64,000 bases of DNA, taken from assembly GCF_000024985.1 (NCBI RefSeq), contig NC_013524.1:744001-808000 (forward strand), given 5' to 3'. The stretch's first letter is position 1. The number at the start of each line of letters is the position of its first letter. Source of the DNA: Sphaerobacter thermophilus DSM 20745. Its GTDB lineage: Bacteria > Chloroflexota > Chloroflexia > Thermomicrobiales > Thermomicrobiaceae. The notes below the pieces were generated by a model. That model saw only the letters and a list, made by a program, of their open reading frames with translations. It made no database searches and had not been told where the DNA came from. Positions 9,023-48,207 of this stretch are shown here, piece by piece. The position numbers and the translations under genes were made by a program.

Positions 9023-10305
9023 CCGGCCGCGTGTCTGGTGACTGATGGGCTGCCAAAAATGCACCGCGCAGACGGCTACCGCGCCGGCCCGGTGTTTCCT
9101 CCCGCCCACTCTCTCCTAGACAGCCGGCCGGAAGCCGGATCACGGACGCATATGACGTTTGGCGAATCGGCTAATCGCCTGTCCGCGGTCGGCAGGGGTC
9201 TGGGGGTGATGGCGGTTGTCGAATACGAAGGGGCTCCGGCGGTGGCACGTGCCCGGGGGTGATGGGATTCGACGCATTGAAAGGGTTGTCCGCCGTCGGC
9301 GTGTGCCCGGGGGTAATGAAGTTTGACGAGTTTGGCGAGTGTACGTGGTCGGCCCGGGGCTGAAGCCGCCGGGCTGACAACGAAAGCCGGCTGACGATAT
9401 TGAGCCGGGAGATCGGTGATTGTCCGCAGCGCGCCGCAACCGGCTCGTAGGCCAATTTGGAGTGCGGCGGCCAAAGCCGCCGCTTTGGTGTGGCGCGGGA
9501 CGGTGGCGTGTGACCTGAGACGGGTGATGCGATGGTTTCCGCGCCGTATCCTGAGTCCAGGAACGATGAAGCGGGATCCTGCGCCGTACGTGTCCGAGAC
9601 GAGTGGTGCGACCGTTCTCGCAGCGAGATCAGCGCCCGGGGTTAAAGCCACCGGGCTGATATTTTGGAAAGCCCACTGAAGGGGCTGCGGTGCCTCCATA
9701 CAGGCGGATTCAATCCAGCATCCTGCCTGGCACAGCTTTTCCAGCCCCTTCAGTGGGCTTCGCCTTGTCAGCCCAGGGGTTTGCCCCCGGGCACCCACCG
9801 ACCGGTGGACACTGTTCCACCGGGGTGTCAACGCTCTTCCCCCCGCCGGCTTCAGCCGGCTTTCGTTGTCAGCCCGGCGGCTTCAGCCCCGGGGCACGTG
9901 CCGACCGCGTACACCCCTGTAATTCGTCAAACTCCATTAGCCCTTGGCAGGTACCACGGTGCGGGGATCCTTGCACGGACTCCTCCGGAACTTGACCGCG
10001 ACACAGGGAAGCTTCACACCGCCCACCCCGGACCCACGCCACAGCGCGAGAGCCTCCTACCACCTCACCCGACCGCACCACATTCCGGACACATGCCACG
10101 GCGCGGGAACCGTCGCACCGCCCATCCCCGGATGCACCACCGCCAGAGACCCACCTGATAGTCAGACTCCATGAGCTGGCTGGGAACGATCGGCGCAGAT
10201 ACCGAGACCATCCGGCGCATTCACTTGCGACGGGCACAGGCAACCCGGGTCAACGGGCCTAAAGGATCACACCGGTCACAGGGGTCGCCGTGCTGGCGCA
10301 CGGCC
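9023..10305. other. Repeat-filled intergenic region without genes
   Basis: About 1.3 kb contain no credible gene; the open frames here are translations of palindromic repeats. From 9233 to 9330 two degenerate units start with GGCACGTGCCCGGGGGTG-like sequence and carry a following TTTGACGA. The large composite inverted repeat at 9351-9898 follows. From 9900 to about 10150 reverse-oriented degenerate units recur (TCGTCAAACTCC, CACATGCCACGGCGCGG, CATCCCCGGATGCACC). The last 150 bp before 10305 show nothing recognisable. Confidence 0.75.
9351..9898. repeat. Composite nested inverted repeat, copy 1
   Basis: The outer arms are a perfect 42-bp inverted repeat: 9353-9394 (starting CCCGGGGCTGAAGCCGCCGG) and 9852-9893. 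Each arm is itself made of partial palindromes. Inside lies a second perfect inverted repeat of 18 bp, AAGCCCACTGAAGGGGCT at 9669-9686 with its complement at 9743-9760, separated by 56 bp. The inner arms are bordered by imperfect GC-rich palindromes (about 9632-9660 and 9768-9794). A GCGGCGGCC..GCCGCCGC hairpin near 9463-9483 sits on the left side only. The same arrangement recurs near 29.6 and 47.6 kb. No transposase is present. Confidence 0.85.
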
Positions 10306-11031
10306 TCACTCCCGCGCGAGACCGACGAGGCGGAGGAAGGCGGTGATCTTGTCGATGTCCCAGTCCGTCATGTCGACGGTCACGGAGAGCGTGACGCCTG
10401 GGCGGGACGGGAGGCCGTCGGTGGGCAGGGTGATGGAACCTGCGCCCGGCGACGTCGGGACAGCGGCGGCCGGGGCCGGCTCGGCAGTCTCCGGGCTCTG
10501 CTGGCGCAGGGAGGCCAACCGCGCGGCGACATCGGGAGCAAGGTCGAGCCGGGTCGGCTGGCCACGCACGCCGCGGCGGTACGTGCCGAGGCCGGCCTCA
10601 TCGGCGAGGCGGAAGAAGAAGGTACGGGCCTCTTCGACACGGTTCCGGGGCTGGCCGAGCCGCATGTCAACCTGCCAGACACGCTCGACCCACGGGGCAT
10701 CGAGAACAGTCAACTCTTCGGCGACGGCGCGCTCCAGCGGGATGGCGTAGGGCGGGTAGCTGAGCATAGCGCGAGCGAGTTCGTCACGGCGCTCACTCTC
10801 GCTGCTGGCGTAGGCCAGGCGCTCGCCCTGCGGTGTCAGGCGCACATCGCCGACCTCGTCCCGCGTGACGAGCCCCAACTGCTCGGCCGCGTTGAGGGTC
10901 TCGCGGAGCGACTCCCCGGCACCCATGCGTGCCTCAAGCGTCGCTCGATCGACCCCCTTCCCCTTGGCGTAGTCGAGCAGGGTACCCATGGCTCGCCAGT
11001 CGGTCCGGTAGGGGAGCATCACCTCGGCCAT
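10306..11031 (-). CDS. Hypothetical protein, winged-helix-like
   Basis: The 241-residue product is read from the ATG at 11031 (GAGGAG five bases upstream); an ATG at 11034 and a GTG at 11037 are alternatives. Residues 1-80 look like a winged-helix domain: LEARMGAGESLRETLNAAEQ followed by LGLVTRDEVGDVRLTPQGER has the helix-helix-wing rhythm of small DNA-binding or partner-binding modules that score a gained growth or fate state. The middle is charged and helical. A linker rich in Pro and Ala (about 180-205) leads to a C-terminal beta-alpha unit, LSVTVDMTDWDIDKITAFLR. This resembles DUF5343-type proteins, but I cannot confirm a family. It is isolated between two repeat-rich regions, so context gives no function. 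Confidence 0.65.
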   Translation of the reverse strand: MAEVMLPYRTDWRAMGTLLDYAKGKGVDRATLEARMGAGESLRETLNAAEQLGLVTRDEVGDVRLTPQGERLAYASSESERRDELARAMLSYPPYAIPLERAVAEELTVLDAPWVERVWQVDMRLGQPRNRVEEARTFFFRLADEAGLGTYRRGVRGQPTRLDLAPDVAARLASLRQQSPETAEPAPAAAVPTSPGAGSITLPTDGLPSRPGVTLSVTVDMTDWDIDKITAFLRLVGLARE

Positions 11032-11787
11032 CATCACTCCTCGGGACGCCGCGCCAGTATCGCCACACGTTCAGTGTGGCACACGCCCAGGCAATCCGTC
11101 AAGCAATAATCGTCAAGCACATACCGCATCCATCGCTTTGCCCAGCGGATCTCGTATGCTTTTCACACTCGCTTGAAGATAGATTCTCTGCACGCCCATG
11201 CTTGCCGTAAGCCACATGCGCTTGATTGTTCAAGTACACTTCTGAAACCGACCGGTCTCAGTGTCACGGAGCAATGCCGGCCGTCGGAGCCTGCTGATGG
11301 CTCACGTCGAGTTGATAGGATCTCGGGCCGTGGCGCGTGCCCGGGGGTTCACCTCGGGCTCTAACCGGACGGCAGGCACCCTATCACCTGAGTGCACGCC
11401 CTGCTCCGCCACAGCTAGCTTTAGCCGGCTTCGCCTTGTCAGCCCGGCGACTCTAGCACCGGGCATCTGCCACCTCCGACGCAGCCCCGATCACTTCGTC
11501 AACTTCATCATCCCCGGGCACAGACCGTCAGCGCAGACCCCGGCCACATCACCATACCCAGCCAACCGACTTCGCCTTATCGGTCCACGACACGCCAGCC
11601 TCCATCGGCGAACGTTGCCACCAGCCCGGCAAGAAGCACCGGACACATGCCCCCCGACACCGAACCGAATCACCAACCCAGGCTTGACCACGACCACTCG
11701 ATCGTGTTAGTGGTTTGCCAAGCAGCAACGTGCCAATACACTTGCAGAATCTCACGCCGCCTGTAATCACGTATCGCCCGATTCCTA
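11032..11787. other. Intergenic region with degraded repeats
   Basis: No supported gene is present. Between about 11325 and 11530 there are worn copies of the dispersed repeat family: GGCGCGTGCCCGGGGGTT, then CTTTAGCCGGCTTCGCCTTGTCAGCCCGG, written here in two pieces, CTTTAGCCGGCTTCGCC and TTGTCAGCCCGG, then TCGTCAACTTCATC next to CCCCGGGCAC. The remaining sequence (11040-11320 and 11530-11780) has lower GC than the surrounding genes but shows no recognisable site. Confidence 0.6.
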
Positions 11788-11816
11788 TTGAGGTATCACG
11801 TGGGATATGTTAGAGT
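11788..11816 (+). promoter_or_regulatory. Sigma-70-type promoter for DnaA-N protein
   Basis: TTGAGG (11788-11793) and TAGAGT (11811-11816) are separated by exactly 17 bp, giving four matches each to the -35 and -10 consensus. The spacer contains the palindrome CACGTG. The position suits a transcript beginning near 11823, ahead of both candidate start codons of the downstream gene. Confidence 0.55.
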
Positions 11817-11894
11817 ACGGGTGGTGGGAAGGGCCAGTGGGGTGCCCCGGTGATCGGCCGTGGCGCGGGGCGCTCTCAATGGGAGGTGGGTCCG

Positions 11895-13892
11895 GTGCCG
11901 GACGAGGGACCGAAGGCCGCCGAGCAGGCAACGCCTCCCGCTGCCGCACAGCGCAGCGGAGAGGATGCCCGCCGTCGTGGCTGGTTCTGGCACTGGAACA
12001 CCATCATCACGCAGTACGCCCCCCTGATCGGCCTCAAGGGCGTCGGGCTCCTCAACTCCTACACCGTCTGGACCGACCGCCGGGAAGAATCCCCCCACCG
12101 CGGCTACGCCTTCCCGAGCCAGCAGGCGGAAGCCGACTTCTACGGCGAGGACCGCGCCGAACTGATCACCATCAACAAGATCCTGGTCGCGCTCGACCTG
12201 ATCGAGATCCGCAAGGAGATGGTGCTGCGCGTGGACGAGCGCGGCCGTCGCTGGCGTGTGCCCCACAACCTCTACCGGGTCAAGGACCATCCCGAGGGGT
12301 ATGTGCTCGGGGTCGACGACGTCCTCCGCGTGGTCGAGCTGGCGGCGCGCGACCGCGCGGTCTACCGGTACATCCGCCGCATCTTCTCCAGCCGCTTTGC
12401 CCCGATCGACCGCGACAACGTCTGGCACCAGATCCTCCCCGTCGTGCGCCAGACGGAGATCTGGCAGCGCCTGGCCGAACGCGCCGAGCGCGAGGAGGCC
12501 CGCAACTCCGCCCGCACCCGAGCCGGCCATGCCAGCCGGTCACGCGCGGCCGGAAAGGAGGAACCCGCAGAACCGACGACGACCGACCCAGCACCACCAA
12601 CAACCAATGTTGAACCCACCAACACTGGTTCACAGCCCGCTGTTGACGAGAGCAACAGTGGTTCTGACGCGGATGTTGCCGCGAGCAACAATGCTTCGGC
12701 CGCTCCGGAGGCTGGCAATGCTGCTCAGACCAACGAAGGTCCGGAAGAGATTGTTGATGAGAGCAACACTACGTATAACCAAGATCTTTCCACTACTACG
12801 ACCACCACTGGCACGCCTGGGACGATGGCTGATACCGCGGGAGGCGACGATGACGACGTATTGCAGCGCCCGGCGGGCGCGGGTCCGATACTGGAGCCGA
12901 CAGCTGCGGTGGTCGCCTGCTTCGAAGCTGCCAACGGGCGGACCGCCACCCCGCTCGAGCGCGAACTTCTGGCAGAGCTTGAAGTGGCATTCGACGCTGC
13001 TGCTCGCCGAGCAGGCGCGAGCGGCAGCGCATGGGTCGAAGCCGCGATTCGGGAGGCGGTCAGCAGCGGATCCCGGTTCGTCGCGCCCAAGCGGATCCGG
13101 GAGATCCTCAGCCGCTGGGCCCGCGAAGGCGAAGCCGTTCGGCCGGGCGCTGCGACGGCGCCGCCGCTAGGCGTGGCGCCGGACGCGCCGGACTTCCCCC
13201 TCCCGCATGGCCCAGGCAGCCGGCGGACGTGGGAGTTCGTCCTCCGCCTCCTCGCGCAGGTGATCGACCGGGCCGAGATGGAACGGCTCTTCGCCGGGTC
13301 GGCCATCGTGGGCTACCGGGCCGGGACGGTCACGGTCGCGGTCGCTTCCGAGGCCATCGCCGCGCGGCTGGGGGCGGAGTACTACGACCTCGTAGCACGC
13401 AAGCTGAGCGAGGCGATGCGCCGCCCGGTGCGGGTGCAATTCACGGCACCGGACACGGGGGATGCCGCGGCTCCGGAGGATGAAGAGCCTGCGCCGGCGG
13501 CTCCTGAGCCTGCACCGCCACCTCCAGCGCGCCCCACGCCACCGGCCGCACCCGCGACGCTGCCACGTTTCGTCCTCCCGGGTGGACTGACGAACTTCCA
13601 GGTCTGGGAGGCGGCTCAGGACGACCTGGCACGGGAACTTAGCCAGGCCAACTTCGAGTCCTGGGTGCGCCCCGCCGCGCTGCTCGGCATGGACGATGAC
13701 GGCACACTCGTGATCGGCGCTCCCAGCGCATTCGCCTGTCGCCGTCTGGAGGTGCTGCTACCCCAGATCTGCGCCGCACTCGGCCGCATCCTCGGCGCGC
13801 CGGTGCAGGCTCGCGCGGTCGTCACCCGCGAATGGCTCCGACAACACCAAGCTCCCGGGTCAGGGGAAGCGGAGGGAAGAGGCAGGGGATGA
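11895..13892 (+). CDS. Winged-helix protein with two DnaA-N-like domains
   Basis: The GTG at 11895 has GGGAGG eight bases upstream and gives 665 residues; an upstream GTG at 11850 would add 15. The N-terminal 190 residues look like a replication-initiator-type helix-turn-helix region. A Thr/Asn/Ser-rich linker (about 238-298) holds degenerate 11-residue repeats. Two copies of a fold resembling the DnaA N-terminal domain follow: one near residues 455-520 (RTWEFVLRLLAQ ... AAEYYDLV-like), and a better one at the C-terminus, with VWEAAQDDLARELSQ, FESWVRPA and LVIGAPSAFACRRLE. In DnaA this domain binds DnaB/DiaA and oligomerises; here the AAA+ ATPase and DNA-binding domain IV are missing. A role in replication or its control is inferred, not shown. 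A Pro/Ala linker separates the two copies. Confidence 0.75.
   Translation: MPDEGPKAAEQATPPAAAQRSGEDARRRGWFWHWNTIITQYAPLIGLKGVGLLNSYTVWTDRREESPHRGYAFPSQQAEADFYGEDRAELITINKILVALDLIEIRKEMVLRVDERGRRWRVPHNLYRVKDHPEGYVLGVDDVLRVVELAARDRAVYRYIRRIFSSRFAPIDRDNVWHQILPVVRQTEIWQRLAERAEREEARNSARTRAGHASRSRAAGKEEPAEPTTTDPAPPTTNVEPTNTGSQPAVDESNSGSDADVAASNNASAAPEAGNAAQTNEGPEEIVDESNTTYNQDLSTTTTTTGTPGTMADTAGGDDDDVLQRPAGAGPILEPTAAVVACFEAANGRTATPLERELLAELEVAFDAAARRAGASGSAWVEAAIREAVSSGSRFVAPKRIREILSRWAREGEAVRPGAATAPPLGVAPDAPDFPLPHGPGSRRTWEFVLRLLAQVIDRAEMERLFAGSAIVGYRAGTVTVAVASEAIAARLGAEYYDLVARKLSEAMRRPVRVQFTAPDTGDAAAPEDEEPAPAAPEPAPPPPARPTPPAAPATLPRFVLPGGLTNFQVWEAAQDDLARELSQANFESWVRPAALLGMDDDGTLVIGAPSAFACRRLEVLLPQICAALGRILGAPVQARAVVTREWLRQHQAPGSGEAEGRGRG
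12608..12768 (+). repeat. 33-bp-phased TGTTG-N7-CAACA dyads inside the gene
   Basis: Small dyads of the form TGTTG, seven bases, CAACA start at 12608, 12641, 12674 and 12752; a degenerate member (TGCTG..CAACG) starts at 12719. The spacings 12608-12641-12674 and 12719-12752 are each exactly 33 bp, and the 12674-12719 step is 45. The repeats encode an imperfect 11-residue unit (for example VDESNSGSDAD and VDESNTTYNQD). The stretch is less GC-rich than the rest of the gene. Both protein-level repeat expansion and a nucleic-acid binding array would give this pattern. Confidence 0.7.
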
Positions 13893-14912
13893 GGAACACT
13901 CCTCATCCCCTTGCCCCCTCTCCCAACGCTCGGAACGAGTGAGGTTCGCCGCGGCGTGGGTCGGGTCGGCCCGCGCGGAGCCACACGGGACGCGAGCGGT
14001 GGGCATCGCGCTTATGTCATTCCGGCAGGCGTCACCGTGGCACGACGGTGGACCGCGGAGCGGATGACCCTATCCCTCGGGCCTGCGCTGAGGCAGCCCG
14101 GGGGACGAGGTGGTATCGCATGGTGGCGTGTGTCGGGAGGCGATGGCGTCTCTCGGATGCGATGGATCATCGCCCGTGGCATATGGCGAGGATGGATGGT
14201 GCAAGGATCTCAGCACTGTGGCAATGTGCCCGGGATGTGGTGCGGACGGGCGAGGTGGTAGGAGGCTCTGGCGCTGTGGCACGTGCCCTGGGGGTGTTGA
14301 AGTTTGACGAATTACCGTGCTACACCGGAGCCGCCCCCATCGACGGGTTGCTGTCATCCTGAGCGGAGTCGGGGGCGGTGAGAGCCGTCCCCGGTGACTC
14401 CGTCCGAGGCAAAGGATCGCTGCACTGGGGGTGGCTCCGAGGAGAGATACTTCGCGTCGCTCAGGAGACATGCCTTTACCCGATTTTCTGGTCATGGGTA
14501 GTCCGCTGGCCGCGTGAGCGGACACGAAAGGCAGTTTGCTGCGCGTGCAGCTCTAGCCCCTTCAGTGGGCTTTCCCGATTCAGCCCGGCGGCTTCAGCCC
14601 CGGGCAAACGTCACGGTGTGAGAACCTTCCCGCCGTCCATCTCCGGGCACACGCCACGGCACCGGGACCCTTCCCACCACCCCATCCTCGGCACGAGCCA
14701 CCACGGAATATCCAACGCATCCGCCAGATCCCGTCACCCCGAGGCCCCCGGCACCGCCGGACACCCATCGCAGCGGCGCGTCACGGTCTTCGTGCGTCAC
14801 GCTTATAGATGAGGAAGCCGGAGCCGCCGCAGCGCGGCGGGGGATCTGCTACGGTGCGGTGGGAGCGCCGGCGGGGTGCTCCGGCATGGGTGCCACGGGG
14901 AGGCTGAGCGCG
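13893..14912. other. Intergenic region with repeat remnants
   Basis: No supported gene lies in this kilobase. Just after the upstream stop, CTCATCCCCTTGCCCCCTCTCCC begins in pieces like the CCCTCTCCCA/TGGGAGAGGG repeat. From about 14020 to 14310 degenerate units recur, ending in GGCACGTGCCCTGGGGGTG and TTTGACGAATT. TGTCATCCTGAGCGGAGTC near 14350 is another dispersed type. From 14550 to 14610 a half of the composite element is present (CCCCTTCAGTGGGCTTTCCC followed by CAGCCCGGCGGCTTCAGCC). Further reversed units run to about 14710. The final 100 bp lead into the cupin gene. Confidence 0.65.
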
Positions 14913-15269
14913 ATGGAGCGGGAGATGACGGTCGTGGATCTGGCGGAGCTGGCGGCGTCCGGTGGATCGGGCGCGATCTTCGCGCGGGAGACGGCGGATC
15001 TAGACCTGAACCTGGTGCGCTTCGCGCCGGGGTCGGGCGTTGGAGAGCATGTCAACCGCGAGGTGGATGTGGCGGTGATCGTGCTCGACGGCGAGGGTGT
15101 GCTGACGGTTGACGGGGCGGAGCACCCGCTGCGGGCCGGGAGGGCGACGATCATCCCGAAGGGGGTGCGCCGGGCGATCCGGGCGACCGGCGACGTGCCG
15201 CTGGTCTACGTCACGGTTCACCGCCGACGGCGGCGCCTCTGGCCGAGCACGCCCGATCGTCAGGCCTGA
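14913..15269 (+). CDS. Cupin-domain protein
   Basis: The ATG at 14913 (MEREMTVVDL) is preceded by GGGGAGG and gives 118 residues; an in-frame GTG at 14859 would add 18 residues of unlikely sequence. The single cupin barrel shows the two-motif pattern: GSGVGEHVNREVDVAVIVLDG for motif 1, given in order as GSGVGEHVN and the following acidic strand, and RAGRATIIPKGVRRAIRATG for motif 2. The metal-ligand set is reduced: motif 1 has a His but motif 2 lacks the usual H (PKGVRRAI), so a structural or ligand-sensing role is as likely as catalysis. It converges with and overlaps the end of panE by 10 bp. Substrate unknown. Confidence 0.8.
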   Translation: MEREMTVVDLAELAASGGSGAIFARETADLDLNLVRFAPGSGVGEHVNREVDVAVIVLDGEGVLTVDGAEHPLRAGRATIIPKGVRRAIRATGDVPLVYVTVHRRRRRLWPSTPDRQA

Positions 15270-16330
15270 GCGGTCCCCGAGGTCCGGCCGAGCGCGGCGA
15301 GCAACGCGTCTGGTCGCCCGGCGAATGCCCGGCGCCGCTCGGGGTTCCGTGCAGCTTCTTCCAATAGCTCGGTCAGGGTGGCATTGACGGGGGTCGGGAT
15401 GCCGAGCCGAGCGCCCAGGTCTGCGACCGCGCCGTTGAGCCAGCGCACCTCGGTCGTGCCCAGGCCGCGCTCGATGTCGAGCCATAGTGAAGGCCGCTTC
15501 TCGCCGCGGCCGCGTGCGGCGCGTGCGGCGATCAGGCGGCGCGCCAGCGGGGCGGGCAGGCGCATCGCATGGGCGAGGAGCGGCACGTTGAAGCCTGGCA
15601 GCGGGATCGGGCGGATGCCGGCGCCGAGCATCACCGCGAGCGCCTCGATGAAGGCGGCGCGCTCGACCGCGAAGAGGCGTGGGTCGGCATAGATCGCCGC
15701 GGGCGGGAGCGCCAGGAGAGCCGAGGTGGCGTTCGCCATGATGTTGAGCAGGAGCTTCGACCACGTGAGGTCCTGGTAGCGCGGCACGACACCGGCCGGG
15801 AGCCCCGTGGCGGTGAGGGCCGCGGCCAACTGGTCGAGCGGCACACCGCCCCGCACCGGGGCCAGCATGACCCCGCCGGTCGTCTCCTGCCGCACCGTTG
15901 CCGGACTGTCCCGCATGACCGAGGCGGTGATGGTGCCCGACGCGAGGCGCGGCATGTCCGGTTCCGCGAGCAGGGTCTCGACGGTGCCGACCCCGTTCTG
16001 GAGTGCCACGATCGCGGCGCCGGAAGCCGCGAGGCGGCGCAGGTCCGGCAGTGCGGCGGCCACGGCGTAGGCCTTCACGGTGAGGAGGACGAGGGCGGGC
16101 GGAGCCGAAATCGCGTCGATGCTTGTCACGGCAGGGATGCGGATGCGGCGCGTGCTCGACGGCTGGACGATGGTGAGTCCCTGCTCGTTGACGGCCTCGG
16201 CCACCGCGGGGCGGCCGAGCAGGGTGACGGGAGCGTCGGCCGCGGCCAGCACCCCGCCGAGAAGGCAGCCGACGGCGCCTGCGCCGTAGATCAGGGTTGG
16301 AGGAAGCGACGCGACCGGCTCAGTCGGCAT
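15260..16330 (-). CDS. panE: 2-dehydropantoate 2-reductase
   Basis: PanE reduces ketopantoate to pantoate with NADPH in coenzyme A synthesis. The 356-residue protein, read from the ATG at 16330, opens with the Rossmann motif GAGAVGCLLGG, and continues with VLLTVKAYAVAAALPDL (the conserved VK pair of the family) and VALQNGVGTVE. The later TWSKLLLNIMANATSALLA carries the conserved Lys (WSK) and Asn of the active site. A TTG nine bases upstream is an alternative start. The gene overlaps the end of plsY by 11 bp, so the two are probably cotranscribed. Paralogues with unassigned 2-oxoacid substrates are common, so the exact substrate is likely but not certain. Confidence 0.9.
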   Translation of the reverse strand: MPTEPVASLPPTLIYGAGAVGCLLGGVLAAADAPVTLLGRPAVAEAVNEQGLTIVQPSSTRRIRIPAVTSIDAISAPPALVLLTVKAYAVAAALPDLRRLAASGAAIVALQNGVGTVETLLAEPDMPRLASGTITASVMRDSPATVRQETTGGVMLAPVRGGVPLDQLAAALTATGLPAGVVPRYQDLTWSKLLLNIMANATSALLALPPAAIYADPRLFAVERAAFIEALAVMLGAGIRPIPLPGFNVPLLAHAMRLPAPLARRLIAARAARGRGEKRPSLWLDIERGLGTTEVRWLNGAVADLGARLGIPTPVNATLTELLEEAARNPERRRAFAGRPDALLAALGRTSGTAQA

Positions 16331-16952: not shown

Positions 16953-17122
16953 CCTCTCGCTATCACACGGATCGTACTCGGCCGTTGCATCCCGCCGGGT
17001 GCCGGCGGAAGCGATGGAGGAGTGGCGACCGGCGTTCACAGAAGGGCACGGTTGGACGGGTACACGGGCCCGACCAAGAGAATAACACCACCAGGGCTAA
17101 AGATACGAGGCCGGCAGCCGCC

Positions 17123-18775: not shown

Positions 18776-18833
18776 GACCGCCCTCCTGCTTCGCTGCGGC
18801 ATCTGCGGCACCAGCCTGTGGCTCGTTATGTTG

Positions 18834-19317: not shown

Positions 19318-19324
19318 TCTCGCG

Positions 19325-29465: not shown

Positions 29466-30141
29466 ACCATCCTCCTCCAGATTCTGAACCGGTCCCTACC
29501 GCGGGCATAGTACACCGCCCCGCGCCGCGGCGCGAGCGGTGGTGGTGCTCTCTGGCACGCGGCGGCGCGGGGGCAGGGTGGTGGGGCGGTCGCGGTCTGA
29601 CGGAGTGGTGGAAGGGTCTAGCGTGCTAGTACGTGCCCGGGGCTGAAGCCGCCGGGCTCACCATGAAAGCCGGCTAAAGCCGGCTGGGACTAAGCCGGGC
29701 TAACCCCCGGGTGATAGGTGCCCGCCGCCCGGTTAGTGCCCGGGGGTAAACCCCCGGGCTAGGAAGCGAAGTCCACTGAAGGGACTTAGGGCGCTGAGCC
29801 CGGTGGGTGGCCGAATCGGATTCGCCTGAATGTTGCCATCACAGCCCCTTCAGTGGGCTTTCCATCTTCAGCCCGGGGGGTTACCCCCGGGCACCGACCA
29901 CGACGTCGTGATCCTTACGCCACCAAACCCGCGATCCGACGCCAGCGCGGAACCAACCGCGGCGCGGCGCCTCCATGCCACCGATCCCGTGTCCCGACGC
30001 CGTCGCGGCCACCCCCGGCGCACGGCTGATGCCGCGCGGTACCAAAGCGGCGGCGAGAGCCGCCGCACTCCAAGACTGGTCGCCAGCCGGCTTTAGCCGG
30101 CTTTCGTTGTCAGCCGGGGGGTTCACCCCCGGGCACGTGCT
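29466..30141. other. Repeat-filled intergenic region
   Basis: No gene is supported between the VPS10-like gene and ptsI. The first 165 bp hold the upstream region of the VPS10-like gene and show nothing clear. From 29631 to 30138 the sequence is occupied by the second composite inverted repeat. The last few bases adjoin the ptsI stop codon directly. Confidence 0.75.
29631..30138. repeat. Composite nested inverted repeat, copy 2
   Basis: Outer arms: 29631-29687 (ACGTGCCCGGGGCTGAAGCC, then GCCGGCTAAAGCCGGCTGG) and 30083-30138 in reverse. Inner arms: 29736-29786, made of the palindrome CCCGGGGGTAAACCCCCGGG and GAAGTCCACTGAAGGGACT, facing 29843-29893 with CCCCTTCAGTGGGCTTTCC and a matching palindrome. 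The central spacer is 56 bp (29787-29842) and contains GTGGCCGAATCGG. A GCGGCGGC..GCCGCCGC hairpin is at about 30047-30067, here on the right side. The arrangement mirrors copy 1 near 9.4 kb and copy 3 near 47.6 kb. Confidence 0.85.
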
Positions 30142-37259: not shown

Positions 37260-37277
37260 CGAGTGCTCCTTCCTCCA

Positions 37278-38782: not shown

Positions 38783-39011
38783 GCGAGCGTGTCCCCCACC
38801 GGTCCGGCATGCCGGATTCTAGAGTCTACGGGACCCACCGCTCACGGGCAATGGCTCAGGACATCGGCTTTTCGCCGGTTCTTCGCGCTGGTGGTGGAGA
38901 GGGTGCAGGCGAGCCTGCGGCGACTTGGTTCTGGCCGGGGTGGTGCGATAGCATTGCGGCTTTCGGGTTCGAGGAGTGACCGAAGCGAACTGCGAAGGAG
39001 AACGACGCCGC

Positions 39012-40856: not shown

Positions 40857-41105
40857 CTCCGGAAGGTTGCATTCCCGTAACTTTTCGGTGCTCATGTGAT
40901 GTCAGGCGCCCGACACATTCGTTTAATCGCGTGACACCGGTCGAGCCCCGGTTGCGAAGCTGGGGGTGTTCAACTTCGGGGAATGCCGCCAGCACGCGGA
41001 GAACGGCGCCCATTGGGCGTCGTGCCGGGGGCGAAATATCCGGGGGTAGACCAACCGGGCTCGCCGATGCCTGACCAGATGGACGTCTCAGGGTGGAGGG
41101 CATCA

Positions 41106-41876: not shown

Positions 41877-41983
41877 CGGCCGCCTGCCGGCAGCTCAGGA
41901 CGCGGAGCCGGTCCGACCTATCGGCGGCACAACCAGTTGCCCGGCGACACCGGTTCGGCCATAATCGGTCCGGGTGAGGTGGT

Positions 41984-42020
41984 GCCCCGGCAGGGTCGGC
42001 TTTGCCTGCCGCGCCGGGGC
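41984..42020 (+). terminator. GC-rich hairpin before the small membrane gene
   Basis: GCCCCGGC (41984-41991) pairs with GCCGGGGC (42013-42020), and the inner GGCAGG/CCTGCC pairs extend the stem. It stands about 108 bp after the response-regulator stop and 27 bp before the TTG start of the next gene. Termination of the regulator transcript is likely, although no U-tract follows. Confidence 0.45.
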
Positions 42021-42047
42021 TGTGGGACTGGTTGAGGAGGATCGTTC

Positions 42048-42251
42048 TTGATTAAGAAGATTTGGGTGCCGGCGGTCATCCTTCCGGTGATCATCTGCGC
42101 CTTCATCTTCCTGATGATCGTCGGGATCGGTGAGTCCCTGCTCTTTACGTCGATCGAGATTTCGGGTGAGGCGGCCGTCGCGCTGGGCGTGTCGCTCCTG
42201 ACGATCATCGCTGGGGTGTCGTGGTTCGTGGCCCGGCGGGTCGACGAGTAG
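42048..42251 (+). CDS. Small two-helix membrane protein
   Basis: A TTG start (42048) with GAGGAGG seven bases upstream is well supported. The 67-residue product starts MIKKIWVPAVILPVIICAFI and has two membrane helices (about 8-28 and 44-62) with a short acidic loop (SIEISGE) and a basic end, AVRRVDE-like (FVARRVDE). It matches no family I can name. The next gene (SDR) starts 19 bp later, so the two may be cotranscribed. A small accessory subunit or a stress-type membrane peptide is possible, but there is no direct evidence. Confidence 0.7.
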   Translation: MIKKIWVPAVILPVIICAFIFLMIVGIGESLLFTSIEISGEAAVALGVSLLTIIAGVSWFVARRVDE

Positions 42252-42270
42252 CTCCGGAGGGGGCGCCCGC

Positions 42271-42984
42271 ATGACGGCCCTCCGCGGCAAGGTCGCGCTG
42301 ATTACCGGCGCTGGCAGTGGCGTCGGTCGCGCGACCGCCCTGCGGCTGGCGCGGGAGGGCGTAGGCGTCGGCTTGCTCGGCCGGCGTCCTGAGCCGTTGC
42401 AGGAAACCGCGACCGCGGTGCGCCGCATCGGCGGGCAAGCGGTCGTGCTCCCGGCCGACGCAGCGGACGAGGTGGCCGTGGGCACCGCGGTGGCACAGCT
42501 CGCGGGCGATCTCGGCGGTATCGACGCCCTGGTCTACAGCGCCGGGGTCGGCCTCTACGGGCCGGTCGAGCACTACTCGCTCACCGACTGGCAGCAGACA
42601 TTCGCCACCAACGTCACGGGCCTCTTCCTCTGTGCCCGAGCCGTGCTGCCGTTCCTCCGGCGGCGTGGCGGCGGCCACATCATCGCCATCTCCTCCGGCG
42701 CCGGGCGCCGCGGCTACGCCAATCTGGCCGCTTACTCCGCCTCGAAGTTCGCCGTCATCGGCTTCATGGAATCCCTGGCCGAGGAGGTCGGGCCGGACGG
42801 GATCAAGTGCAGCACGATCCTGCCCGGCAGCATCCTCACCGACTTCGGCCCGAGCACGCGCGCCGAGAAGCGCGCGAGCGGGAAGAAGTACCTCGACCCC
42901 GAGGACGTGGCCGACGCGATCCACTACCTCCTGACCCAACCCGACCACGCCTGGGCTCAGCAGATCAACCTCTGGCCGTTCTGA
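42271..42984 (+). CDS. Short-chain dehydrogenase/reductase
   Basis: The 237-residue protein is a classical SDR: cofactor motif TGAGSGVGRATALRLA, the NAG-type strand VYSAGVGLYG, the catalytic Ser in IIAISSGAGRRG, and YSASKFAV with the Tyr and Lys of the YxxxK pair. Asn in ATNVTGLF completes the tetrad. The Arg/Arg after strand 2 (LGRRPEPL) suggests NADPH. The end GAWAQQINLWPF-like segment is usual for the family. Substrates of SDRs cannot be read from sequence. It lies directly downstream of the small membrane protein and ahead of a repeat cluster. Confidence 0.9.
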   Translation: MTALRGKVALITGAGSGVGRATALRLAREGVGVGLLGRRPEPLQETATAVRRIGGQAVVLPADAADEVAVGTAVAQLAGDLGGIDALVYSAGVGLYGPVEHYSLTDWQQTFATNVTGLFLCARAVLPFLRRRGGGHIIAISSGAGRRGYANLAAYSASKFAVIGFMESLAEEVGPDGIKCSTILPGSILTDFGPSTRAEKRASGKKYLDPEDVADAIHYLLTQPDHAWAQQINLWPF

Positions 42985-43377
42985 CCCCGAGCGCACTCCG
43001 TGCGTGGACAAACCACATGCGGGCGAATGCGCATGGCTTCGGAGTGCGGCGACCTGAGCCGCCGCGTTGGTATGGCGCGGCATCAGCCGCGCTGGGAACT
43101 GAAGGGGCTGGGGACGCGGCGCCGGGCGGGGTGCCGAATCGGCTCTGCCTGTGTGTGGCCATCGCAGCCCCTTCAGTGGGCTTTCCCGCTATTCAGCCCG
43201 GGGATAAACCCCCGGGCCCTCACCGATCGGCGGACACTTATCATCTGGGTCTGAGTCCTGCTGCGCCCCAGCCCGCTTTAGCGGGCTTCGCCTTGTCAGC
43301 CCGGGGGTTTACCCCCGGGCACGTGCTATCAGACCGGCGTTCAGCCCCGGGCACATGCCGACTTCTGAAAACAGAAA
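42985..43377. repeat. Right half of the composite inverted repeat
   Basis: This region without genes holds an incomplete copy of the composite element. A hairpin GGAGTGCGGCG..GCCGCCGCGTTGG begins near 43040, and a worn left inner arm (GGGAACTGAAGGGGCTGG) is at 43093-43111. The central spacer (about 43112-43166) has GTGCCGAATCGG as in copy 2. The intact right inner arm CAGCCCCTTCAGTGGGCTTT is at 43165-43184, followed by a GGGGATAAACCCCCGGG palindrome and the right outer arm at 43269-43325 (CAGCCCGCTTTAGCGGGCTT). The left outer arm is missing. The remaining bases to 43377 carry a fragment, CAGCCCCGGGCACATGCC. Confidence 0.75.
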
Positions 43378-43403
43378 CCCCCGGCGGGGATCCCCGCCGG
43401 GGG
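43378..43403 (-). terminator. Intrinsic terminator of the sigma-factor gene
   Basis: A perfect 26-bp palindrome (CCCCCGGCGGGGA and its complement) starts 21 bp after the stop of the sigma gene. On the minus strand it is followed by TTTCTGTTTT, a good U-tract. This is the clearest rho-independent terminator in the window. Confidence 0.88.
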
Positions 43404-43423
43404 TGAACTGTTCGGCTGGAACG

Positions 43424-44413
43424 CTACGCCGCGTTGGCAAGCTGGATCAGGTCCGAATTGCGCAGCTTGGCCAGCGCCTCCTTCTCGATCTGGCGTACCC
43501 GCTCGCGGCTGATGCCGTAGTACTCGGCAATCTCCGCCAGCGTCTGCGGCTGCTGGCCGCCGAGGCCGAACCGCAGCGTCAGGACGCCCCGCTCGCGCTC
43601 GCTCAGGCTCTCGAGGCTGCGGCGGATCTGATCGCGGATCGCGCTGGTGACCGCCTGGTCCACCACCTCGTCGCTGGCGGGATCAGGCAGCAAGTCGCCG
43701 ATGGTGCTCTCTCCATCCTCGCCAATCGGCTTATCGAGGGACGAGGTCCGCGGGATCGCCGACCGGGCCTGCTCGATGCGCTCGACGTCGAGGTCGAGGG
43801 CCTGGGCCAACTCCTGGTCGGTGGCGGGCCGACCATGCAACTGCTCGAGCTGCGCCTCCGTCCGGCGCACCTTCGAAATCAGGTCATGCATATGCACCGG
43901 GACGCGAATGGTCCGGCTCTGGTTCGCCACGGCGCGGCCGATCGCCTGCCGGATCCAGAAGGTCGCGTAGGTGCTGAAGCGATAGCCCAGCTCCGGGTCG
44001 TACCGCTCAACCGCGGTCATCAGACCGATATTGCCCTCCTGAATCAGATCGATCAGGGGCAGCCCACTGGTCCGATACTTCTTGGCGATCGACACGACCA
44101 GGCGCAGGTTATGTCGGATCAGCTTCTCCCGAGCCGCCTTGGCACGCTCGATAATCTGATGCAGCTCCTCCGAGTCCTCACCGGCCTCGAGCCGCTTGCG
44201 CGCCTCAAGCCCGGCGCGAACCGCCCGGGAATACTCGATCTCTTCACGGTGCGTTAGGAGCTGGTGCCCACCGACGTCGCGAAAGTAGCGATAGACAGCG
44301 TCGCTGGTGGCCTGGTCGATGAGGTCCGCCGACTCATCGACGACGTCCCGAACCTCGGCCTCTTCCGCCAGCCGCTCCAGTTCGTAGGTGTCCTGGATCG
44401 CTCGCTCCGTCAT
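43424..44413 (-). CDS. Sigma-70 family sigma factor (group 1/2 type)
   Basis: From the ATG at 44413, with AAGGAGTC five bases upstream, the protein has 329 residues. Region 1.2 (DAVYRYFRDVGGHQLLTHREEIEYS), region 2 (LIQEGNIGLMTAVERYD with FSTYATFWIRQAIGRAV; -10 recognition), region 3 (RVPVHMHDLISKVRRTE) and region 4 (TLAEIAEYYGISRERVRQIE; -35 recognition) are complete, so it directs transcription from standard promoters. The absence of a long acidic region 1.1 points to a group 2 or short SigA-type factor. It is monocistronic, with its own consensus promoter and terminator. Whether it is the main or an alternative sigma factor is undecided from this window. Confidence 0.93.
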   Translation of the reverse strand: MTERAIQDTYELERLAEEAEVRDVVDESADLIDQATSDAVYRYFRDVGGHQLLTHREEIEYSRAVRAGLEARKRLEAGEDSEELHQIIERAKAAREKLIRHNLRLVVSIAKKYRTSGLPLIDLIQEGNIGLMTAVERYDPELGYRFSTYATFWIRQAIGRAVANQSRTIRVPVHMHDLISKVRRTEAQLEQLHGRPATDQELAQALDLDVERIEQARSAIPRTSSLDKPIGEDGESTIGDLLPDPASDEVVDQAVTSAIRDQIRRSLESLSERERGVLTLRFGLGGQQPQTLAEIAEYYGISRERVRQIEKEALAKLRNSDLIQLANAA

Positions 44414-44493
44414 GTGACTCCTTGATTCTGACACTTCACACATCCGCTCCGCGCTTTCGGACCAGACCTGCCGCCCGGTCCGAAAACCTAGAT

Positions 44494-44522
44494 AGTTTAG
44501 CACACACCCGTTGCTATGTCAA
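44494..44522 (-). promoter_or_regulatory. Consensus sigma-70 promoter of the sigma gene
   Basis: On the minus strand TTGACA (44517-44522) and TAAACT (44494-44499) are spaced by exactly 17 bp. The -35 is perfect and the -10 matches in five of six positions. The predicted start near 44487 leaves a leader of about 75 bases. Confidence 0.85.
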
Positions 44523-44618
44523 GAACGTACAACGCCCCAAACGGATGCGGGGGACGCATCCGGTGCCAGAGCCGGTGCGGCTACGTGTTGTTGGTGGAGG
44601 AGTCGCGGAGCGACATGA

Positions 44619-45245
44619 CTACTTGGAGATGATGCCCTCCAGTGTGTTGGCGAGATCCTCTCCACGGTCGGCGACATCCTCCAGGCGGTGGTAGAGCTCT
44701 TCCCAGCGGATCTCCTTGATGACCGAGGGGATATCGTGGACGTCGGCGTAGAGTTCGGCCAGCGCGTCGCTGAGCGCGTCGTCGGCTTCGTCCTCCAGGC
44801 GGTTGATCTCGACGATGTAGGTCATAATCTCGCGCCGATGATTGTCCTGCGCGAGCAGGTTCATCGCCGCGGCGATCGCCGTGCCCTGCTCCGCGATGAT
44901 GCGCCCGAAGAGCCGCGCGCGCTCGGTGGGGCGGTCGATCTTGTAGAGCACGAGCCGACCGGCGGCGGCGGTGATGTAGTCGATGAAGTCGTCCAGCGCC
45001 GCAGCCAGCTCGCGGATGTCTTCGCGGTCGAACGGGGTCAGGAACGTGGTGTCGAGCGCCGTGAGGACGCGATGGGTGATCTCGTCGCCGCGATGCTCCA
45101 GATCCTCCAGCCGGCGCACCCGATCCGGGACGTCGGTGAAATCATCGAGGATATCGCTCAGGCCCTGCGCAACCTCACGCGCGTTCTCGGCCCCCTCTTG
45201 GAAGTACTGGAAGAACCGTGTGTCTCGCGGGAGGAGTCGCACCAT
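44619..45245 (-). CDS. DUF47 family (PhoU-like) protein
   Basis: The 208-residue, almost wholly helical protein begins MVRLLPRDTRFFQYF and has the family motifs EDLEHRGDEITHRVLTALDT (metal-binding E/H/D cluster), FLTPFDREDIRELAAALDD, and a second cluster near LEDEADDALSDALAELY and LYHRLEDVADRGEDLANTLE. DUF47 proteins resemble PhoU and often pair with Pit phosphate transporters, but no pit gene is adjacent here. It lies divergently from the E1 alpha gene. Its role in phosphate handling is inferred from the family. Confidence 0.92.
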   Translation of the reverse strand: MVRLLPRDTRFFQYFQEGAENAREVAQGLSDILDDFTDVPDRVRRLEDLEHRGDEITHRVLTALDTTFLTPFDREDIRELAAALDDFIDYITAAAGRLVLYKIDRPTERARLFGRIIAEQGTAIAAAMNLLAQDNHRREIMTYIVEINRLEDEADDALSDALAELYADVHDIPSVIKEIRWEELYHRLEDVADRGEDLANTLEGIISK

Positions 45246-45522
45246 CCGGTCCCGCCCTCACCCTCTCTCGCTCCTACCCCGGCTGGGGTGCGGCCTGTCT
45301 TTCAGAAGTCTACCGCACATTGGTGGCCGTGCCTCGCCGATGGCCACCCGGGCCGAAGACTTGCGACTACATCGGGCACGACTCTGCGCGAACCGAAAGC
45401 GGCGCTGCGACATGATGAGCAATTGACACCTGGACACTCTCGGACTATGCTCGGAACGAGCGACGCGACAACCGAATAGGGCGCTCGGCCAAGCCGCGCC
45501 CGCGCGGACAGGAGGTGTCGTC

Positions 45523-46560
45523 ATGTGGAAACCGGAGCCGGCACTCCCCGACTTGCATTTCCTCCTCGACAGAGCGGGTCTGACGCGGGAGGCGCTGCTG
45601 GCACAGTACCGCCAAATGTGCCTGATCCGCGACTTCGAGGAGTTGATCGCCGAGCGCTACGCCATCGGCAAGACGCCGAACTTCAACATGGCAGCGGGGC
45701 CGATCCGCGGCGAGATGCACCTGGCCGTGGGACAGGAGGCGGTCGCGGTCGGCGTCTGCTCGTTGCTCACGGATGCCGATGCGGTCGTGAGCACACACCG
45801 GCCGCACCACCACGCGCTGGCCAAGGGCATCGACCCCGGCCGCCTTGCGGCCGAGATCTTCGGCAAGAACACCGGGTTGTGCCGCGGCAAGGGCGGCCAC
45901 ATGCACCTGTTCGACGCCGAGAAGAACTTCTCTTGCAGCGGCATCGTCGGCGCGTCCTACCCACAGGCTGCGGGGGCGGCCTTCAGCTTCCGTGCCCAGG
46001 GGCAGCCGAACGTCGCGGTCGCCTTCTCCGGCGAGGGCGCGGCCAACCACGGCACCTTCAGCGAGACGCTGACAGCCGCGGCACTCTGGCAGTTGCCGCT
46101 CGTGATCGTGATCGAGGACAACCTCTACGCCGACTCGACGCCGAAGTGGGCCGCGCTGGCAAGCACGCACCAGTCCCACCGAGCGCAGGCGTACAACGTC
46201 CCGGCCTACCTGGTCGACGGCATGGACGTCATCGACGTCTACGCCGCAGCGAAGCGCGCCATCGAGCGGGCGCGGGCGGGCCACGGCCCCACGGTGATCG
46301 AGGCGGTCTGCTACCGCTACCGGGGTCACTTCGAGGGGGACGGCGAGGACTACCGCACCCGTGAGGAGGTCGAACTCTGGCGCACGCTCGACCCGATCGA
46401 GCGGCTGGGTAAGCGCCTAATCCGGCTGGGTTGGGCCGACGACGCGACGCTGGCGGAACTGCGCGAGGAGGCAGCGCGTGATGCGGCGCAGGCGATTGCC
46501 TTCGCCGAGGAGAGCCCGCTGCCCGAGCAGCGTGAGGCGCTGATGGGGGTGTTCGCATGA
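45523..46560 (+). CDS. pdhA: 2-oxoacid dehydrogenase E1 component, alpha subunit
   Basis: The alpha subunit of thiamine-diphosphate E1 decarboxylates a 2-oxoacid such as pyruvate or acetoin. The 345-residue protein opens with RQMCLIRDFEELIAERYA, carries GPIRGEMHLAVGQEAVAVG and STHRPHHHALAKGIDP, and the cofactor motif AFSGEGAANHGTFSETLTAA ending IEDN (usually GDG..N; here GEG). CRGKGGHMHLFD is the conserved loop that folds over the active site. AGGAGGTG precedes the ATG. The stop overlaps the beta-subunit start by four bases. No E2 or E3 gene follows, so the partner subunits lie elsewhere. Acetoin dehydrogenase is an equal possibility. Confidence 0.92.
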   Translation: MWKPEPALPDLHFLLDRAGLTREALLAQYRQMCLIRDFEELIAERYAIGKTPNFNMAAGPIRGEMHLAVGQEAVAVGVCSLLTDADAVVSTHRPHHHALAKGIDPGRLAAEIFGKNTGLCRGKGGHMHLFDAEKNFSCSGIVGASYPQAAGAAFSFRAQGQPNVAVAFSGEGAANHGTFSETLTAAALWQLPLVIVIEDNLYADSTPKWAALASTHQSHRAQAYNVPAYLVDGMDVIDVYAAAKRAIERARAGHGPTVIEAVCYRYRGHFEGDGEDYRTREEVELWRTLDPIERLGKRLIRLGWADDATLAELREEAARDAAQAIAFAEESPLPEQREALMGVFA

Positions 46561-47582
46561 GCGCACGAACGATGAAAGGCATCGCCTTCGCCATCGCGGA
46601 GGCGATCGACCAGGAGATGTCCGGCAACCCCAAGGTCGTCGTGATGGGCGAGGACGTTACCTACTGGGGCGCCGTCTTCGGCTTCACCATGGGCCTGCAC
46701 CAGAAGTACGGCCGCGAGCGGGTGATCGACACTCCGATCACCGAGCAGACATTCATGGGCATGGCGGTCGGCGCCGCCGCAACCGGGATGCACCCGGTGG
46801 TGTCGCTGATGTTCGTTGACTTCCTCGGCGCCGGCTTCGACCAGATGTACAACCACATGGCGAAGAACCACTACATGTCGGGGGGCCAGTTCGCCATGCC
46901 GGTGACGGTCCTCACCGCCATCGGCGGCGGCTACGGCGACGCCGCGCAGCACTCGCAGGTCCTCTACGGCCTCTTTGCCCACGTCCCCGGCTTCAAGGTC
47001 GTCGTGCCGTCGACCGCCTACGACGCGAAGGGGCTGACGCTGACCGCGCTGCGCGACAACAACCCGGTGGTGATCTTTGGCCACAAGCTCCTGACCGGGC
47101 TGCCGTTCCTCCCGTTCGAGGGCGAGGAGGAGACGGTGCCGGAGGAGCCGTACACCATCCCCTTCGGGCAGGCGGCCGTCCGCCGTGAGGGGAGCGACCT
47201 GACCATCGTGGCGGCGGGCGTCATGGTCCCGCGCAGCCTCCGTGCGGCCGAGCGCCTGGCTCAGGACGGCATCGACGCTGAGGTGATCGACGTGCGCACC
47301 CTGGTGCCACTCGACACCGACACCCTGGTCGCCTCGGCGCGCAAGACCGGCCGGGTCCTCATCGTGGACGAGGATTACCAGAGCTACGGCATGACCGGGG
47401 AGCTGGCCTTCCGCATCCAGGCCGCGGCCTTCGACGCGCTCAAGGCGCCGATCCACCGGCTGGCGGTGCCGGACGTGCCGATTCCCTTCTCCGAGCCGCT
47501 GGAGTCGGCGGTGATCCCCGGCGTCGACCGCATCGTGGAAGAGGCTCGGGCGCTGGCCGGGGCACAGGTCACGGCGGATTGA
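46557..47582 (+). CDS. pdhB: 2-oxoacid dehydrogenase E1 component, beta subunit
   Basis: The 341-residue subunit completes the E1 heterotetramer. It has VVVMGEDVTYWGAVFGFTMG (the GEDV motif with cofactor-activating Glu), DTPITEQTFMGMAVGAAATG, and LMFVDFLGAGFDQMYNHMAK, then IVAAGVMVPRSLRAAERLA and VIDVRTLVPLDTDTL in the C-terminal domain. The ATG overlaps the alpha gene (ATGA), so the two are coupled. Substrate preference (pyruvate, acetoin or branched-chain oxoacid) is not settled by these motifs; the relatedness of PITEQ and FDQMYNHMAK favours pyruvate/acetoin types. Confidence 0.92.
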   Translation: MSARTMKGIAFAIAEAIDQEMSGNPKVVVMGEDVTYWGAVFGFTMGLHQKYGRERVIDTPITEQTFMGMAVGAAATGMHPVVSLMFVDFLGAGFDQMYNHMAKNHYMSGGQFAMPVTVLTAIGGGYGDAAQHSQVLYGLFAHVPGFKVVVPSTAYDAKGLTLTALRDNNPVVIFGHKLLTGLPFLPFEGEEETVPEEPYTIPFGQAAVRREGSDLTIVAAGVMVPRSLRAAERLAQDGIDAEVIDVRTLVPLDTDTLVASARKTGRVLIVDEDYQSYGMTGELAFRIQAAAFDALKAPIHRLAVPDVPIPFSEPLESAVIPGVDRIVEEARALAGAQVTAD

Positions 47583-48207
47583 CCCGCGACGGGTGATGTG
47601 AGGGATCCCGCGCGGTGGTTGGGGTCCGGGGGTTCACCCCCGGGCTCACAATGAAAGCCGGCTAGAGCGGGCTGAAGGAAAATGGGCTAACACCCCGGTG
47701 TTGAGCGCCGACCGGGCGGTTAGTGCCCGGGGGTAAACCCCCGGGCTGACACGGCGAAGTCCACTGAAGGGACTAGGGACGCTGGGCCTGTCCGGAGGCT
47801 GGATCGGGTCAGCCCGGGTGTACGAGATGGAAGCCCCTTCAGTGGGCTTACCCATTATTCAGCCCGGGGGTTTACCCCCGGGCACGGACCACGCTGCGGA
47901 GATCCTCTCACCACCCGGTCGGTTCATGACCCCCAGCCCGCTTTAGCGGGCTTCGCATTGTGAGCCCGGGGGTTCACCCCCGGGAACGTGCCGGCCGCGT
48001 TCCCCCGACAAAGGCACCTCGTGCCCTCAATCCCCGGGCACGGACCACGGCGCGGAACCCCTCACCACACCGGACGCGTTCATCACCCGTTCCCACTGCC
48101 TATGCGCCTGTGTGACCCGCGTGGTACCCTGCGTGTGGAGACACGCGTTGATCAACGAGGAGCGATCGCCCCGGACGGTGCGGGGCGGGCGATGACGGAG
48201 GCTGGCG
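47583..48207. other. Repeat-filled intergenic region
   Basis: No gene is supported. Positions 47625-47985 hold composite repeat copy 3. From 47985 to 48080 there are further degenerate units (CCCCGGGCACGGACCACGGC near 48034). The last 100 bp before moxR include CGCGTGTGGAGACACGCG-like dyad GTGTGGAGACAC (about 48131) and GGAGG six bases before the start at 48208. Confidence 0.7.
47625..47985. repeat. Composite nested inverted repeat, copy 3
   Basis: Outer arms: 47625-47674 (palindrome CCGGGGGTTCACCCCCGG, then GCTCACAATGAAAGCCGGCT and AGAGCGGGCTG) and 47934-47985 in reverse. Inner arms: the palindrome CCCGGGGGTAAACCCCCGGG at about 47726-47745 and GAAGTCCACTGAAGGGACT at 47756-47774 on the left; AAGCCCCTTCAGTGGGCTT at 47831-47849 and a matching palindrome to 47885 on the right. 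The central spacer is 56 bp. The left segment between outer and inner arms (GGGCTAACACCCCGGTG..CGGGCGGTTAGTGCC) is shared with copy 2. It is the most compact copy, about 360 bp. Confidence 0.87.

Follow-up and report, generated by a model that had tools for sequence, protein, structure and literature searches.

In haloarchaea, palindrome-associated transposable elements (PATEs) are the short palindromic, non-autonomous partners of Y1 transposases, and in E. coli the bacterial interspersed mosaic elements (BIMEs) are built from single-hairpin repetitive extragenic palindromic (REP) sequences with a GTAG foot, in alternating order and with regular spacers. TnpA-REP of E. coli, in the account given in PMC8266576, cuts at a CT that lies on the 5' or the 3' side of the hairpin; the cut is thought to be guided by the tetranucleotide foot of the REP. 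For another branch of the family, subclass 1.2 of TnpA-Y1, Table 1 of Quentin 2018 (PMC6006769) gives the entry "REP: no", with Cyanobacteria and Bacteroidetes as hosts, and the subclass is described there as generally devoid of terminal secondary structures. Here, we analyzed a stretch of 64,000 nucleotides (the window) from the genome of Sphaerobacter thermophilus DSM 20745 (G000; 3,993,764 bases in two contigs), in which an earlier note, made from the sequence alone, had described three copies of a large composite inverted repeat. These composites are likely to be nested, non-autonomous REP doublets, resembling the REPINs (REP doublets forming hairpins) of other bacteria, that belong to a Y1/HuH single-strand DNA transposase of the subclass 1.2 type, for which a single gene was detected.

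All three copies (9351-9898, 29631-30138 and 47625-47985) are present and follow the same plan, P1-linker-b>-spacer-P1-linker-a>-56 bp centre-a<-linker-P1-spacer-b<-linker-P1, in which P1, a and b denote short hairpins, > and < indicate orientation and, in the layouts given below, numbers are the bases between elements. The first description needs one correction, as the nested plan is a chain of a single 50-nt two-hairpin unit; the size of the copies, presented as far larger than that of REP or BIME units, is better expressed as that of several REP-like units in a row, the core of which has the size of a REPIN. The perfect match of 42 bp claimed for the outer arms of copy 1 was recovered (9353-9394 with 9852-9893). 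The innermost repeat, given as 18-19 bp around a centre of 56 bp, holds for copy 1, where the longest exact inverted match between inner arms is 19 bp (9669-9687 with 9742-9760), and is shorter in copy 2 (14 bp, with 23 bp for its outer arms); in copy 3, the longest matches are 18 bp for the outer arms and 27 bp for the inner arm including P1, and the three centres measure 56, 56 and 57 bp. In control segments of 548 bp, the longest exact inverted match across the middle did not exceed 13 bp (60 first-order Markov segments) or 12 bp (57 segments taken at random from the window), so that the maximum over all 117 controls was 13 bp. The composites are not an artefact. In copies 2 and 3, the left and right a hairpins differ by two changes that pair with each other.

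The earlier note had proposed a search for a REP-type tyrosine transposase. In the genome, the PF01797 model detected one Y1_Tnp gene (C1:86896-87234; E 9.9e-26), flanked on both sides by inverted P1-linker-a arms that share an exact inverted match of 37 bp and are of the same kind as the arms of the dispersed doublets. The distance between the two arms is 505 bp, with room for one gene. As such arms stand on either side of the only Y1 gene that G000 was found to have, the inner element can be read as the REP doublet (REPIN-like) of this transposase. The protein (159 aa) contains the motifs DHVH, WQ and YIVDQRRHH; it lacks the Class 2 motif Y---NP and has Y---Q--HH instead, and its motifs fit the signature of TnpA-Y1 subclass 1.2. 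The doublets are probably non-autonomous. The proposal that the composites are elements moved in trans is supported in kind by the one Y1 gene carrying the same arms on both sides; the doublets would be mobilized in trans by the transposase.

The doublets are abundant. The inner repeat AGCCCCTTCAGTGGRCTT was searched in 61 genomes, allowing one mismatch and using the reversed pattern as a control. G000 carries 148 sites (79 + 69), G001, a metagenome-assembled genome of the same genus, 162, G002 27 and G006 one, while the remaining 57 genomes and the reversed control gave none; a lack of further copies in the genome, which had been named as an argument against a repeat family, is thus not what was found. 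In 55 aligned inner doublets of G000, the centre is one sequence family, present in one orientation in 27 cases and in the other in 28. From G000, 80 stretches were fetched, 60 through the inner repeat and 20 through the outer arm, ignoring the inner one. The full composite reads P1-9-b>-52-P1-10-a>-56-a<-10-P1-50-b<-10-P1 to within a few bases (for example in L052, L163, L179 and copy 3). For the 57 inner cores of the window and of 59 stretches fetched by the inner repeat, an outer hairpin was sought 45-260 bp away, and the next one lay at 78-92 bp in 47 of 58 cases (uniform expectation, 7.6%). Outer arms at the fixed distance are present on both sides of 10 cores; seven have one at the fixed distance and the other elsewhere, 20 have one fixed and the other absent, 17 have none on either side and three show other arrangements.

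The basic unit of about 50 nt consists of the P1 hairpin (about 9 bp, commonest loop TNAA), a CT, a linker of 10-12 nt and a second hairpin, P2, whose foot is AAG. The inner doublet is formed by two such units, inverted relative to each other and separated by about 56 bp; in the outer arms, b replaces a as the second hairpin of the unit. The constant parts of the unit were read from 16 arms at the genes of relatives, which were mostly recovered as inverted repeats shared by the two sides of a gene and without a motif search: two A's of the P1 loop, the CT ending P1 and the two A's of the P2 foot are among the invariant letters, and the AAG foot as a whole is nearly constant. MAFFT aligned these arms with P2 out of structural register, and arms of near-equal length were aligned instead. 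The unit was then modelled by R1, a covariance model trained on 27 arms from transposase genes of relatives. The constancy of CT and [AG]AG in these 27 arms is no proof, because the scan that picked them demanded both; the T and the A's of the P2 loop were not demanded. The hairpins are stable when folded with RNA parameters, and 12 of 16 stem pairs changed on both sides (103 cells compared with 25.6 in shuffles, a partly circular count). These counts were not taken as proof either, because the arms had been chosen for hairpin formation with CT and [AG]AG.

Relatives of the transposase were collected by searching genome contigs with six of these proteins in aligned form, and the best 80 of 144 were used; by title, their loci are mostly from Chloroflexota and Cyanobacteria, with few others. 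In regular-expression searches, the HuH motif is present at 75 of these 80 loci, Y..Q..[HR]H at 74 and Y..Q..HH at 68. Counting R1 matches in the expected orientation within 350 bp of the gene, arms lie on both sides at 41 loci, on one side at 24 and on neither at 15, so that like arms accompany related genes in two phyla. Upon removal of the 22 loci that supplied training arms, the numbers are 22, 21 and 15 of 58, a set of incomplete independence, as some of its arms equal or closely resemble training arms (L203 and L200 share one). At 27 of the 80 loci, the two arms flanking the gene are more alike than 99% of 120 pairs made from different loci (28 with L219, omitted as its match is a run of N). 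Around the related genes, 81 facing doublets were counted, some of them bracketing a gene or sharing a hairpin. Two hairpin scans gave lower numbers. With perfect stems, a scan that overlooked the bulged P1 of the Sphaerobacter arms, 12 of the 80 loci have hairpins on both sides and 23 on one (Markov null, 0.000 and 0.013), compared with 0 and 11 of 69 in a distal control. An energy-based scan, stricter in other ways, gave seven and 20 (0 of 400 shuffles; distal control, 0 and five of 69), and 17 flanks with arms in the opposite orientation. At two loci (L214, L219), regular arrays of units lie beside the transposase gene with steps near 195 bp.

Units were also counted genome-wide. Under stricter filters, R1 detected at least 146 units in G000, at least 146 in G001 and 92 in G002. 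Ten further genomes were picked from the related loci, nine of them cyanobacterial by name, and seven have at least 137-150 units each, with 16, 46 and 47 in the other three. In a comparison of 41 genomes, several of them incomplete and with cut-offs set after seeing the data, five or more units were present in nine of 10 genomes with a subclass 1.2 gene and in seven of 31 in which none was found (p 0.00026).

In the window, R1 detected 16 units at E < 1e-7 (Table 1), four in each of the three copies, two at 43.17-43.32 kb, one at 14.56-14.61 kb and one at 11.41-11.46 kb; the last three sites are partial copies absent from the earlier description. The spacing is undisturbed in copy 3, and extra DNA separates inner and outer arms in copy 1 (left) and in copy 2 (right).

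Table 1. Two-hairpin units, centres and spacer in the window, with R1 scores.
Feature	Start	End	Strand	R1 score
Copy 1, outer left unit: P1, linker and decayed b hairpin	9352	9392	+	32.2 bits (E 7.6e-8)
Copy 1, inner left unit: P1, linker and a hairpin	9634	9686	+	36.8 bits
Copy 1, centre, 56 bp	9687	9742	.	
Copy 1, inner right unit	9743	9792	-	50.6 bits
Copy 1, right spacer, inner P1 to outer b hairpin	9793	9843	.	
Copy 1, outer right unit	9844	9895	-	40.5 bits
Partial copy, P1-spacer-b-P1	11413	11464	-	37.7 bits
Partial copy, right inner unit	14555	14605	-	44.9 bits
Copy 2, outer left unit	29635	29685	+	48.3 bits
Copy 2, inner left unit	29738	29786	+	55.9 bits
Copy 2, centre, 56 bp, orientation opposite to copy 1	29787	29842	.	
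Copy 2, inner right unit	29843	29892	-	42.3 bits
Copy 2, outer right unit	30085	30134	-	56.0 bits
Fourth, truncated composite, inner right unit	43166	43217	-	40.1 bits
Fourth composite, outer right unit	43270	43320	-	63.5 bits
Copy 3, outer left unit	47624	47673	+	37.9 bits
Copy 3, inner left unit	47725	47774	+	59.4 bits
Copy 3, centre, 57 bp	47775	47831	.	
Copy 3, inner right unit	47832	47883	-	48.6 bits
Copy 3, outer right unit	47935	47984	-	52.0 bits

Other repeats and mobile elements are found within the composites. The extra DNA of copies 1 and 2 contains palindromes of another family, of the GCGGCGGC...GCCGCCGCACTCC type (in the window from 9459 and from 30044), which recur in L165, L169, L173 and L177. 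The outer hairpin of copy 1 of G001 harbours a small element of about 250 bp (G001 C3, L125:5031-5279), the inverted ends of which are TGGAGTTTGACGAATTA / TAATTCGTCAAACTCCA, and similar ends occur within the composites L173 and L183 and beside copy 1 of the window. A DDE insertion sequence (326 aa, DDE_Tnp_1) encoding an identical protein at L003:1571-2551 (-) and L010:444-1424 (-) sits in the loop region of the P1 palindrome, where its end CTAACTCACACCAAGCGTT adjoins half a P1; the ends of this element are also present in L033, L035, L039, L047-L049, L058, L059, L151 and L160.

The nesting can be followed within one genome. Among the 20 stretches fetched through the outer arm, L171, L179 and L181 are full or near-full composites, L166, L175 and L182 are halves, and other broken forms occur. 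Two of the 20, L170 and L176, are empty-centre forms with a single central P1 and without the inner doublet (P1-9-b>-52-P1-49-b<-9-P1 in L170). As these two loci keep one central P1, nesting seems to reflect doublets that were either inserted at P1 or lost from it. A third level of nesting is present in L054, and a and b are interchanged in the inner slot of L067, L071 and L156 (b>-56-a<) and of L057 (a>-56-b<). P1 as a target-site duplication was ruled out: the bulged forms of P1 on the two sides are reverse complements, inverted and not direct. Composites, distances and empty-centre forms within one genome offer a natural record of doublet insertion or loss. Between genomes, the segment at 11.34-11.47 kb of the window reads P1-spacer-b<-P1 in G000 and P1-a>-56-a<-P1 with similar flanks in G001, and has no unit in G002. 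The 43.1-kb site has the right half only in G000, a full composite in G001 and a nearly full one in G002; this composite is therefore old and, judging from the orthologous sites, probably predates the split of the three genomes.

These forms suggest how the composites may arise. The transposase would bind the folded single strand and, by analogy with the cutting of TnpA-REP at CT, may cut at the CT beside P1; the invariance of this CT in the 16 arms is only a hint of a cleavage site. Such a cut would free modules without P1, which could rejoin at other copies of P1, and the arrays have this appearance. P1 would then be both end and target, and this double role would result in mirror nesting: an older b-type doublet would have received a younger a-type doublet at its central P1. 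More broadly, we lean, with some reserve, towards the view that a separate REP world exists alongside that of the GTAG REPs and is driven by the HuH transposases of subclass 1.2 in Cyanobacteria and Chloroflexota. Their substrate would be a two-hairpin unit with TNAA in its loops, a CT following the first hairpin and AAG as the foot of the second, P1 would be end and landing site, and doublets inserted into doublets would give mirror-symmetric composites.

Several observations weigh against the assignment of the doublets to this transposase group. Firstly, 15 of the 80 loci have no arm in the expected orientation, three of them having arms in the opposite one only, and at a cyanobacterial locus (L246) both arms are reversed (1448-1496, 1957-2005). 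Secondly, units and genes do not always coincide: seven of the 31 genomes in which no intact subclass 1.2 gene was found have five or more units (some are incomplete, and G002 has a gene remnant), and R1 found no unit in G027, which has subclass 1.2 genes. Thirdly, the arm type common to the genes of G040 and G050 has seven copies in G040, two in G050 and one in G006, and that of G057 has two copies in G057, four in G040, two in G008 and one in G035; the expectation that each genome amplifies its own arm type fails for G057 and for G050 (two copies each). Finally, no clean pair of occupied and empty doublet sites was found between genomes, the window sites being mostly occupied in G001 and G002 too, and the differences among G000, G001 and G002 at these sites are internal gains or losses that recombination between P1 copies could also produce. 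As to genomes with units and no subclass 1.2 gene found, G008, G014, G029, G036, G038 and G039 have 5-19 units each; a lost gene, an incomplete genome or another source of units may account for them.

Recombination between P1 copies is central to the alternative that survives best, a rather doubtful one in our view, in which the whole four-arm composite of about 360 bp is one transposing unit, and single doublets and halves are deletions between P1 copies. The spacing is fixed on both sides, a P1-P1 deletion within a full composite could yield either of the forms seen at 11.4 kb, and the full or nearly full state of the orthologous 43-kb site in G001 and G002 would suit a complete ancestor older than the three-genome split. 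In contrast, only the 10 of 57 inner cores mentioned above are framed on both sides by outer arms at the fixed distance, 17 cores lack outer arms altogether, and no b arm was found in the 680-840 bp of flanking sequence beyond each arm of the transposase gene itself (L032).

Nested doublets of a REP-type transposase have also to be weighed against an ordinary insertion sequence of the IS200/IS605 type with PATE-like non-autonomous copies, which would not be a REP system and which we consider unlikely. The protein scores above the cut-off of the NCBIfam IS200 model (78.7 bits; cut-off 55) and below that of the REP transposase model (27.6 bits; cut-off 80), and its best matches by sequence among solved structures are IS200/IS605-type transposases (E 6e-8 to 7e-7). 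However, it has the subclass 1.2 signature, and Quentin 2018 (PMC6006769), in its treatment of the subclass, separates it from IS200 for lacking insertion sequence properties. The genomic distribution points the same way, as the gene occurs once and occupies the same site in G000 and in G001, with a remnant there in G002, and many doublets are present in place of insertion sequence copies; several near-identical copies, a trait of IS200/IS605 elements, were not seen in G000, where one Y1 gene was found. In G000, the gene lies between genes for the B and A subunits of a type II topoisomerase (fragments on both sides), for which GyrA and GyrB are the best specific models with scores under their cut-offs, and topoisomerase IV is possible too. 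In G001, it adjoins the same B-subunit gene (L076) and encodes a protein 97% identical to that of G000; in G002, only a remnant of the C-terminal half is left between the topoisomerase genes (C34:45300-45830), accompanied by one arm that has b as its second hairpin; and in G006, the two topoisomerase matches at this site are separated by about 160 bp, compared with about 970 bp in G000.

Conservation of the palindromes as structural or RNA elements (terminators, gyrase or nucleoid sites) spread by recombination without a transposase is very improbable: the copies of the window lie in gaps between the longest open reading frames (judged from these frames alone), the hairpins fold stably with RNA parameters and E. 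coli BIMEs bind gyrase, but the two orientations of the centre are equally frequent, arms flank a transposase gene in many genomes, Rfam models at gathering scores gave no match in the window, and the 27 inner repeats of G002, with its gene remnant, against 148 and 162 point to decay of copies after gene loss. With the arms at a transposase gene and no Rfam match in the window, the source of structured RNA suggested by the earlier note is not supported either.

On the reading as nested doublets of a REP-type transposase, a group of HuH transposases for which the 2018 description gave no DNA partners gains a specific and testable substrate, and the arms yield a covariance model for annotating intergenic repeats in Cyanobacteria and Chloroflexota, the units of the window being without a match in Rfam. 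No description of these two-hairpin units was recognised in literature searches; Elhai 2008, which is said to concern very small cyanobacterial repeats, may bear on the cyanobacterial ones.

The closest described systems are those formed by REPINs and RAYTs (REP-associated tyrosine transposases; TnpA-REP). They have in common with the present one a single Y1 HuH gene flanked by repeats (a REPtron), inverted doublets in high copy, reported tandem and nested clusters, and a hairpin with a foot motif and a CT close by (Bertels and Rainey 2011; Quentin 2018). The nesting itself is not without precedent: REPINs inserted into or next to REPINs were already noted by Bertels and Rainey 2011. In contrast, the unit here is made of two hairpins, its foot is AAG (GAAG, AAAG) where REPs have GT[AG]G, the protein has Y---Q--HH and not Y---NP, and the composites have a mirror plan of four arms with fixed spacing. 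With subclass 1.2 as characterized in Quentin 2018, the protein shares DH[VI]H, WQ and Y---Q--HH, a length of about 150 aa, low copy number and a presence in Cyanobacteria, to which Chloroflexota are added here as hosts; unlike the "no" entered for REPs in the table of that paper, double-hairpin arms are present on at least one side at 65 of the 80 loci. IS200/IS605 elements (IS608, ISDra2) share the transposase family (Y1_Tnp) and hairpin ends, whereas here 505 bp lie between the arms, a single copy was found in G000 and the arms are inverted double hairpins. PATEs resemble the doublets as short palindromic, non-autonomous partners of Y1 transposases; we know of neither a two-hairpin arm nor mirror nesting among them. 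BIME clusters of E. coli are likewise composite REP arrays with regular spacers, whereas their units are single-hairpin, GTAG-footed and alternating, and those described here are in mirror order. What is new here is thus the two-hairpin unit and its association with a transposase subclass reported without REPs; otherwise, the system is of a known kind, REP-like doublets of a HuH transposase.

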